Source of the DNA: Dehalococcoidia bacterium
GTDB lineage: Bacteria > Chloroflexota > Dehalococcoidia > Lucifugimonadales > Lucifugimonadaceae
Assembly (NCBI GenBank): GCA_014239735.1
Contig: JAAZYI010000010.1
Location: 122,223-186,222 of the forward strand
DNA length: 64,000 nt
Reading direction: 5' to 3'
Shown: positions 24,842 through 28,458 of the stretch, piece by piece
Position numbering within the stretch: the stretch's first letter is position 1
How the letters are laid out: each line of letters begins with the position of its first letter
Notes under the pieces: model-generated
What the model was told of the DNA's origin: nothing
Seen by the model: only the letters and a program-made list of their open reading frames with translations
The model's database searches: none
Position numbers and translations under genes: made by a program

Positions 24842-25048
24842 ATGAACGTAAGAGAAAAATTAGGTTTAACTCCGAAAGCTATGCCTCAATTTGGGCAAAG
24901 CAGAAGTCACGCTATGAACTCGTCTAAAAAAACATTTAAGCCTAATGTTCAAAATAAAACAGTAATTTTAGATGGAAAAAAATATAAAGTTAAATTAACT
25001 ACAAGAGAAATTAGGACTCTTGATAAAAAAGGTATTAACTTACTCTAG
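24842..25048 (+). CDS. bL28-like ribosomal protein lacking Cys zinc ligands
   Basis: QFGQSRSHAMNSSKKTFKPNVQNKTVILDGKKYKVKLTTREIRTLDKKGI resembles L28 GN..SHANRKTKR.F.PNLQ.V.V..dG..k..rv..rclr...K.G. Confidence 0.72.
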   Translation: MNVREKLGLTPKAMPQFGQSRSHAMNSSKKTFKPNVQNKTVILDGKKYKVKLTTREIRTLDKKGINLL

Positions 25049-26844
25049 CTTCTACTTAGCACAAATATTGCTGTATCAGCATTAAGATTGGGATTTTCTT
25101 TAATCAACTCATCTTTTTCAGAATCTATATAGAAAGACTCTTTAATTTTAATATTCTTAGAGGCACAATATTCTTGAAAATCAAGAATTGTAGGAAATCT
25201 TCTATTAGGTGTATTGTACCAATTATACCCATAAAGACCTTCTAATTTTGGGGCCTTTCCTTGATTATAGAGCATCTCTCTCAATGGTTTAAAGGCAAAG
25301 TTTGGAAAGGATATTATAGCCTTTTCAGAAATTCTAAGTATTTCTTCTATAGTTTTTTCTACGTTCTTAATGGACTGTAGCGTTTGAGAAAGAATTGTTA
25401 TATCAAATTGATTATCATTAAACCTATCTAGACCAGTATTAATATCAGAATTAATTACCTCTAAACCTTTGTTTGAACTTATAATTACTTTTTTAGCATC
25501 TATCTCAATTCCTAATAATTTGGAACATTTCTTCTTTTTTAATTCATTTAATAACTTTCCATCTTCACAGCCCAGATCTAATACACGATCATTTTCTCCT
25601 ATTAAGCTACAGATAAAATCTAGATCAAGCCTATTGTTAAAAAATATGTTTGTTGAAGTTGGATTAGAATTTTTTATTTGATGATCTTTTTCTTTTCCAG
25701 AAAGTTTTTTCAATAAAGAAGAAGTTAATAATCCATAATCTTCCACCTCATTTTCTAACAAAAATGCATCATGACCAGCTTCGCTATTTATTGAACAATA
25801 TGACACAGACTTATCTAAGCTTACTAATGCATTAACTATTTCTTCTGATTGGAAGGGAGGGTACAGCCAGTCACTGGAAAAACTAACTAATAACCATTCG
25901 CATGTTGTTGCTTTTAAGTTATTTTTTATTTCATCGATAGTTCCACCTAAATCAAAATAGTCTACTGCGGTAGATAATGTTATGTAGCTATTGGCGTCAA
26001 ATCTATCTACGAATTTAGTTCCTTGATATGCAAGGTAAGTTCCAACTGAGAACCTTTTCTCAAATTCAGTAGTAATTTCTTTTGGTTCATATCTAGTGTT
26101 ATCAAATTTATTTTTCATTGAATCTTTCGAAACGTACGTAATATGAGCCAACATTCTTGCTATAGCCAAACCATCTTCAGGCTTTTCTTCAGAATTATAA
26201 TAATTACCTTCCTTAAACCTTGGATCTTTTTTTATTGCATTTCTACCCACAATATCAAAAGCCAAGGCTTGATTAGTAAGCCTTGCTGAAGTAGCTAACC
26301 CAATAACACTTTTAATTTTATCTGGAAATTGTCGTGCCCATTGAATTGATTGAAATCCACCCATTGATCCCCCAGTAACACAAAGAATGGACTCTATTTC
26401 TAGATATTCTATAAGAAGATTTTGTGCATTTACCATATCTTCCATTGTTATATTAGGAAAATTAGAACCGTAGGGAGCTCCGGTGCTTGGGTTAATTGAG
26501 TTAGGTCCTGTAGACCCTTTGCATCCACCTATTACGTTACTACATATTACAAAGTAATTATTAGTATCAATAGGTTTGCCCGGACCCACCATTATATCCC
26601 ACCACCCTGAAATATCTTCATCATCATGTTTTGCAACATGAGAGTCTCCGCTTATTGCATGACATATTAGAACAACATTTGATTTATCTTTATTTAAATC
26701 TCCATAAGTTTCATAAGATATATTTAATTCATCAAGAACATCTCCAGATTTGAGATGAAATTTATCTCCATAAAAAAATTTTTTGAGATACTTGGATGTA
26801 TCTCCTGTTCTGTAAAGATCTGAATTGTAATTTTCTTTTGTCAT
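25045..26844 (-). CDS. metX: Homoserine O-acetyltransferase fused to MetW-like methyltransferase domain
   Basis: N-terminal MetX (NVIGGCKGSTGPNSINPSTGAPYG, GGSMGGFQSIQWARQFP); C-terminal MetW (RVLDLGCEDGKLL...ISFPNFAF...YNWYNTPNRRFPTILDFQEYC). Confidence 0.93.
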   Translation of the reverse strand: MTKENYNSDLYRTGDTSKYLKKFFYGDKFHLKSGDVLDELNISYETYGDLNKDKSNVVLICHAISGDSHVAKHDDEDISGWWDIMVGPGKPIDTNNYFVICSNVIGGCKGSTGPNSINPSTGAPYGSNFPNITMEDMVNAQNLLIEYLEIESILCVTGGSMGGFQSIQWARQFPDKIKSVIGLATSARLTNQALAFDIVGRNAIKKDPRFKEGNYYNSEEKPEDGLAIARMLAHITYVSKDSMKNKFDNTRYEPKEITTEFEKRFSVGTYLAYQGTKFVDRFDANSYITLSTAVDYFDLGGTIDEIKNNLKATTCEWLLVSFSSDWLYPPFQSEEIVNALVSLDKSVSYCSINSEAGHDAFLLENEVEDYGLLTSSLLKKLSGKEKDHQIKNSNPTSTNIFFNNRLDLDFICSLIGENDRVLDLGCEDGKLLNELKKKKCSKLLGIEIDAKKVIISSNKGLEVINSDINTGLDRFNDNQFDITILSQTLQSIKNVEKTIEEILRISEKAIISFPNFAFKPLREMLYNQGKAPKLEGLYGYNWYNTPNRRFPTILDFQEYCASKNIKIKESFYIDSEKDELIKENPNLNADTAIFVLSRS

Positions 26845-28187: not shown

Positions 28188-28239
28188 TTAAGTGACCTCC
28201 TTATTTTTAATAATTTTTATAAAACTAAGAAGTGCCAAC

Positions 28240-28270
28240 AAAAAAATCCGCATACTTTGCAGTACACGGA
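28240..28270 (-). terminator. Tandem terminator 2 (promoter-distal) of metY leader
   Basis: Minus strand TCCGTGTACT-GCAA-AGTATGCGGA (10-bp stem, two GU) followed by 7 T. Confidence 0.85.
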
Positions 28271-28342
28271 CAATCTTAAAAACTTTAAGTTTTTTTTAAA
28301 AAAAATCCGCATACTTTGCAGTACACGGACAATCTTAAAAAC
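28247..28342 (-). repeat. Exact 37-bp direct repeat, 59-bp period, containing both terminators
   Basis: tccgcatactttgcagtacacggacaatcttaaaaac at 28247-28283 and 28306-28342. Confidence 0.98.
28298..28329 (-). terminator. Tandem terminator 1 (promoter-proximal) of metY leader
   Basis: Identical hairpin to terminator 2, followed by 8 T on minus strand. Confidence 0.85.
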
Positions 28343-28399
28343 CTTTGCCTTTTAGCAGTTTTTTGAGTGTCCGCAAGCTGACTTTCAAATCAACACTTA
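28343..28399 (-). promoter_or_regulatory. Probable SAM-II riboswitch aptamer upstream of metY-metXW
   Basis: Minus strand AAGTGTTGATTTGAAAGTCAGCTTGCGGACACTCAAAAAACTGCTAAAAGG has the remembered SAM-II hallmarks: P1 hairpin, UGAUUU loop, CUUGC(A/G)G, downstream GCUAAAA-GG. Confidence 0.72.
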
Positions 28400-28458
28400 A
28401 TTTCATTATAACATATTAATTTTTTATATTTCAATACCTAAACTAGAAAAATTAAAAT

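Follow-up and report, generated by a model that had tools for sequence, protein, structure and literature searches.

Why does the metY leader of a marine SAR202 bacterium (Chloroflexota) carry two identical intrinsic terminators behind a single SAM aptamer, and can one strand of RNA govern both of them? We analysed this leader within a window of 64,000 nucleotides (the whole stretch of DNA studied here), which comes from an assembly of 1.29 Mb in 50 contigs, labelled G000 in the comparisons. A preliminary description, made from the letters alone, had proposed that one aptamer strand attenuates metY-metXW by acting on either member of a pair of identical terminators, and that a strand-exchange relay between the repeats could disarm both. 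The attenuator is supported by our analysis, and the relay survives only as a minor path. The reading that we favour, at a probability of roughly 55%, is a SAM-II riboswitch of the OFF type in which the terminator was duplicated in place, with one antiterminator strand governing both copies.

Organization of the metY leader

All elements lie on the minus strand between 28434 and 28188, in the order promoter, SAM-II aptamer, first terminator (T1), A-rich spacer, second terminator (T2), short leader with the ribosome-binding site, and metY (Table 1). The transcript is predicted to start near 28398, i.e. at the 5' strand of P1. The gene for a metX-metW fusion starts 47 nt after metY.

Table 1. 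Features of the metY leader and the genes behind it (window positions).
Feature	Position	Strand	Remarks
Promoter, sigma-70-type, TTGAAA-18-TATAAT	28405..28434	-	11/12 matches, TG before -10
SAM-II riboswitch aptamer (RF00521)	28332..28406	-	39.4 bits against a gathering threshold of 36; full length, model positions 1-79
P1 5' strand, AAGUGUUGAU	28389..28398	-	complementary to P1 3' strand and to element X (28230-28238)
P1 3' strand, UGCGGACA, antiterminator strand for T1 or T2	28368..28375	-	
Repeat copy 1 with terminator T1	28299..28345	-	stem 28329-28306, U-run 28305-28298
A-rich spacer, AAAAAAAACUUAAAG	28283..28297	-	pairs in predicted folds with GGUUUUUAAG (28343-28334, upstream of T1), lengthening the T1 stem
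Repeat copy 2 with terminator T2	28240..28286	-	stem 28270-28247, U-run 28246-28240
Element X, UUGGCACUUCUUA	28226..28238	-	5' arm of hairpin over ribosome-binding site; its UUGGCACUU complementary to P1 5' strand
Shine-Dalgarno sequence, UAAGGAGGUCA	28193..28203	-	3' arm of hairpin with X
metY, O-acetylhomoserine sulfhydrylase, 431 aa	26892..28187	-	TIGR01326, 668.6 bits
metX-metW fusion, one 599-aa protein	25045..26844	-	NF001209 over residues 23-378, TIGR02081 over residues 405-596

A single SAM-II aptamer and its distribution

The SAM aptamer that had been called from the letters alone was confirmed by the covariance model as SAM-II (RF00521, 39.4 bits). Score, pseudoknot and gene context all place it in this class, with SAM as the putative ligand: the strands of the H-type pseudoknot are present (P1 AGUGU/ACACU; P2 formed by the loop GUC-AGC with GCU...GGC, 28382-28377 with 28356-28347), and the aptamer precedes sulfur/methionine genes, namely metY and metX-metW here and thrC in the relative G006. 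It is the only SAM-II site between 28100 and 28500, where the search of Rfam families gave no other credible family, and downstream of T1 neither SAM-V nor a further SAM-II gave a match. A tandem riboswitch of two aptamers is thus ruled out, as no second aptamer lies between or after the two terminators.

Within the genus, 6/10 genomes carry the aptamer; among 60 relatives it was found in no other genus. A class-wide sample of 396 genomes gave an over-threshold match only in the window's own genome, and one further match, sub-threshold, in another family. The four congeners without the aptamer are 58-70% complete and lack a metY match too, so that its absence from them says little. No such aptamers were found in viral contigs. 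Horizontal acquisition of the aptamer is plausible. Putative SAM-II control of methionine genes is hereby documented for a SAR202 genus, in a class whose sample is nearly devoid of SAM-II.

Several other SAM-II loci were seen in these genomes. At the end of contig C1 of G000 (L037:3491-3520), the start of a second SAM-II aptamer, AGTGTTGATTTGAAAGTCAGCTTGCGGACA, adjoins tRNA-like sequence and is cut by the contig end. In G006, SAM-II with a single terminator lies upstream of threonine synthase (L035:4002-5912). The small ORFs that come next, of 81 aa and 92 aa, resemble by eye a NIL-domain protein and a sulfur carrier of the ThiS/MoaD kind, which suggests control of the threonine/methionine branch. 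Another locus of G006 (L036:5553-5891) has SAM-II and a degenerate terminator upstream of a 68-aa ORF with no NCBIfam match. Moreover, GUUGAUUUGAAAGUCAGC (28376-28393, minus strand) is common to all SAR202 aptamers found and can form a hairpin incompatible with the P2 pseudoknot, which may be an anti-aptamer fold built into the switch.

Twin terminators, probably under one antiterminator strand

The two identical hairpins described earlier, 59 bp apart in the metY leader, check out: a direct repeat of 47 nt (28240-28345, minus strand) is present in two copies that are 46/47 identical and 59 nt apart, each an intrinsic terminator. T1 consists of TCCGTGTACT (28329-28320), GCAA, AGTATGCGGA (28315-28306) and T8, and T2 has the same sequence with arms at 28270-28261 and 28256-28247 and T7. 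A 2.5-kb region holds 7 terminator-like sites against 1.0 +/- 0.9 in shuffles. The terminator 31-mer (<=3 mismatches) occurs nowhere outside metY leaders in 10 congeneric genomes, which rules out a dispersed genomic repeat, and the same tandem in the independent assembly G008 rules out an assembly artefact.

The P1 3' strand TGCGGACA (28375-28368) can pair with TGTCCGTG at either 28331-28324 or 28272-28265, over 8 bp including two G-U pairs. The preliminary description gave this pairing correctly and understated it, as it extends through UC/GA and A-run/U-run to 12/15 positions (inverted repeats I5 and I6).

This logic is common to the relatives. Six metY leaders were comparable (G000, G008, G004, G006, G002 and G001), plus the thrC leader of G006. 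In every leader the terminator 5' arm is a possible partner of the P1 3' strand, GCGG(A/G)CAC, and terminator and antiterminator exclude each other through this common strand, which ties them to the aptamer. In folding with and without constrained P1, the comparison proposed at the outset, the constraint shifted the balance to the terminator. Without SAM, antiterminator and terminator are near balance in the six metY leaders, the terminator probability at the first U-tract being 0.14 (G004), 0.25 (G008), 0.37 (G001), 0.39 (G000), 0.80 (G002) and 0.82 (G006). When the SAM-bound state was imitated by constraints (P1 enforced and pseudoknot bases blocked), it became 1.0 in 6/6. By these folding models the core is a standard SAM-II OFF switch with a duplicated terminator, and both terminators are probably gated by SAM.

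One or two terminators in orthologous leaders

Conservation of the two copies in relatives, which had been set beforehand as a test that could refute the proposal, gave a divided answer: G000 and G008 have two terminators (2/6), and G004, G006, G002 and G001 have one, as does the thrC leader of G006. Two copies are therefore not general in the genus. The terminator helix itself covaries, with 100% of cells paired and two pairs showing double changes in three sequences each, and the four single-terminator leaders carry compensatory stem changes. Compared with the single-copy leaders, those with the tandem show a joint difference in the P1 3' flank (CACUC) and in the GAUUG that flanks both terminators, so that pairing to both copies is kept.

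The hairpins of G000 and G008 do not differ at all (0/72), whereas 13/91 columns of the non-aptamer flanks do (p = 0.0006), and metY DNA is only 78% identical between them. Unchanged hairpins within diverged flanks indicate constraint or homogenisation, which two species cannot separate. By MetX, G000 groups with G008 and G004 (90-95.5% protein identity). G004 is the closest relative of G008 by both MetX and MetY (MetY 97.5% identical), yet it has a single, different hairpin; thus the tandem may have been lost or overwritten by recombination in G004, or may have moved between lineages.

How the second terminator may be disarmed

Folding energies cannot decide how T2 is disarmed because five states at the second U-tract, AT1+T2, AT1+relay, T1+AT2, T1+T2 and a long nested hairpin (AT1 and AT2 denoting the antiterminator strand paired with T1 or T2), lie within about 1.5 kcal/mol of each other (G000, 37 C), or within about 2.5 kcal/mol for G008 or at 20 C. 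Equilibrium folding alone was therefore dropped as an arbiter between the relay and a hand-over of the P1 3' strand from T1 to T2. A simplified DrTransformer-like co-transcriptional simulation was used, built on structure neighbours and findpath barriers. For the SAM-free state at 37 C and 25 nt/s, the simulation predicts AT1 at the first U-tract in 100% (G000) or 88% (G008). In this model T1 has mostly folded again when the T2 5' arm comes out of the polymerase, and the P1 3' strand takes T2, giving at the second U-tract 92% AT2 and 8% relay in G000, and 72-73% AT2, 18% relay and 10% T2 in G008. When SAM was imitated at 37 C, both terminators of G000 formed in 100%.

In silico controls bear on what each copy contributes. 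An unrelated T2 stem of equal stability always forms. An unrelated T1 always forms too, and in 73% the P1 3' strand nonetheless captures T2. Replacing the spacer abolishes the hand-over, and T2 forms in 98%. The outcome depends on the temperature and on the rate constant chosen: at 20 C and 10 nt/s, with kinetics ten times as fast, the hand-over again dominates (77-95% AT2), and with a slower rate constant at 20 or 28 C it fails, T2 forming without SAM.

These models suggest the following course of events. With SAM, P1 would be locked and its 3' strand unavailable, and T1 and then T2 would form, giving two chances to stop; this step is drawn from constrained folding only. In the absence of SAM, pairing of the P1 3' strand with the T1 5' arm is predicted to let the polymerase pass T1. 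Behind the polymerase T1 would then re-form harmlessly, with help from the A-rich spacer, and release the P1 3' strand, which would capture the 5' arm of T2 while the 3' arm of T2 is still untranscribed, and T2 would fail as well. Wherever disarming of T2 was predicted, it went mostly (about 73-95%) by way of a re-formed T1 and a transfer of the P1 3' strand to T2, with strand exchange as a minor parallel path. That the hand-over and not another route disarms T2 is our leading hypothesis, held tentatively given its dependence on kinetics. The identity of the copies would keep T2 under SAM control, an unrelated second terminator being expected always to stop transcription; whatever the kinetics, only a copy with the same 5' arm can stay controlled by a single antiterminator strand.

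The failure of the hand-over in slow runs bears on a different role for T2, that of an independent backstop which partly stops read-through of T1 irrespective of SAM, lowering both the expression ceiling and the leak. Tandem terminators commonly serve as backstops in general, and T2 does form without SAM in those runs. However, such a backstop would throttle the gene just when methionine is needed, and both copies in both species retain the GAUUG flank, which matches the P1 3' strand; we consider this role unlikely. Still less probable is a chance local duplication of little effect, retained since repeats expand and contract easily: it would suit a tandem found in 2/6 leaders and missing from the closest relative of G008, but not one common to two species whose metX DNA differs by about 15%, with unchanged hairpins and diverged flanks. 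The least probable main route is the relay, in which T1 is opened by the P1 3' strand and its 3' arm, once free, disarms T2 by pairing with the T2 5' arm. In its favour, the helix must be possible between identical arms, its state is isoenergetic with AT1+T2 (minimum free energy -45.5 for AT1+relay, -45.4 for AT1+T2) and it does appear in the 37 C model. Against it, the relay never exceeded about 20% nor became the main state in any native-sequence run, it can be invaded by the T2 3' arm from its weak outer end, and it did not take over when the spacer was replaced.

Element X and a possible translational layer

The TTGGCACT that immediately follows the last U-tract does not vary among seven leaders (six metY and one thrC), although the loop behind it does. 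As a general repeat, element X was rejected because exact occurrences of the 13-mer TTGGCACTTCTTA in the genus are only at five metY leaders. Nor was it kept as a sigma-54 promoter (-12 GC missing by eye) or as a second sigma-70 promoter (-10 candidate weak and not conserved). A hairpin of X over the ribosome-binding site, UGGC-a-CUUCUUA with UAAGGAGGUCA, is predicted in all six metY leaders, in both states at equilibrium, at -9 to -13 kcal/mol and with the probability of an unpaired site near 0. In metY of G006 it is kept by paired shortening (CUCUUA/UAGGAG). The hairpin of the thrC leader, UUUGGCA.CUUUUAU with AUAAAA.AUGUCAAA, covers the start codon.

X is also complementary to the P1 5' strand over 9-10 bp (-7 to -8.2 kcal/mol), and the bulged A of the metY hairpins and the mismatched C of the thrC hairpin are kept, as pairing of X with the P1 5' strand would need. 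These features hint at a second, translational layer through X. At equilibrium the hairpin wins in both states, with X paired to the P1 5' strand at a probability of 0 to 0.23; the P1 5' strand is invariant across leaders, and this pairing thus offers no covariation test. One aptamer helix might even serve three gates, its 3' strand being recycled on T1 and then T2 and its 5' strand pairing with the UUGGCACUU of X to uncover the ribosome-binding site. We regard this as doubtful; if true, one SAM-II aptamer would control two steps of transcription and one of translation, with no second aptamer.

Comparison with known systems

Steeper or tighter riboswitch control is usually explained by repetition of the aptamer. 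Here the stop signal alone is repeated, and its copies must stay complementary to the same aptamer strand for regulation. If our reading is true, evolution would have here a cheap way to tighten shut-off, and the leader would be a natural system in which to test the reuse of a nascent strand during transcription. Our literature search gave no account of twin identical terminators served by a single aptamer strand, which is weak evidence of novelty because most subscription papers lay outside its scope. The duplicated terminator is a moderately unusual arrangement, an uncommon refinement of a known switch type that rests on two species and folding models.

T-box leaders show partial duplications. 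Among the closest systems is the SAM-II (SAM-alpha) riboswitch with a terminator, which has the same aptamer, sulfur-gene context and downstream intrinsic terminator; the locus described here differs in belonging to SAR202 Chloroflexota and in having two identical terminators behind one aptamer. The rimP-leader has two tandem terminators in series with a potential antiterminator (PMC2965389), but the motifs of its two terminators differ (they are inverse), and an aptamer for a small molecule is not described there. Platforms of dual transcription/translation attenuation are a recognised category (PMC2258182) and stop transcription and hide the ribosome-binding site if the stop fails, as the metY leader may do; in those platforms the site lies inside the terminator hairpin, whereas here it lies in a separate predicted hairpin after the terminators. 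Finally, in the tandem SAM-II/SAM-II and SAM-II/SAM-V bi-mechanism riboswitches, the aptamer is repeated and SAM-II comes first, with a terminator (PMC9481103). Under our reading they resemble the metY leader in placing more than one SAM-controlled step before the same gene, but each of their steps has its own aptamer, whereas here one aptamer is followed by a duplicated expression platform.
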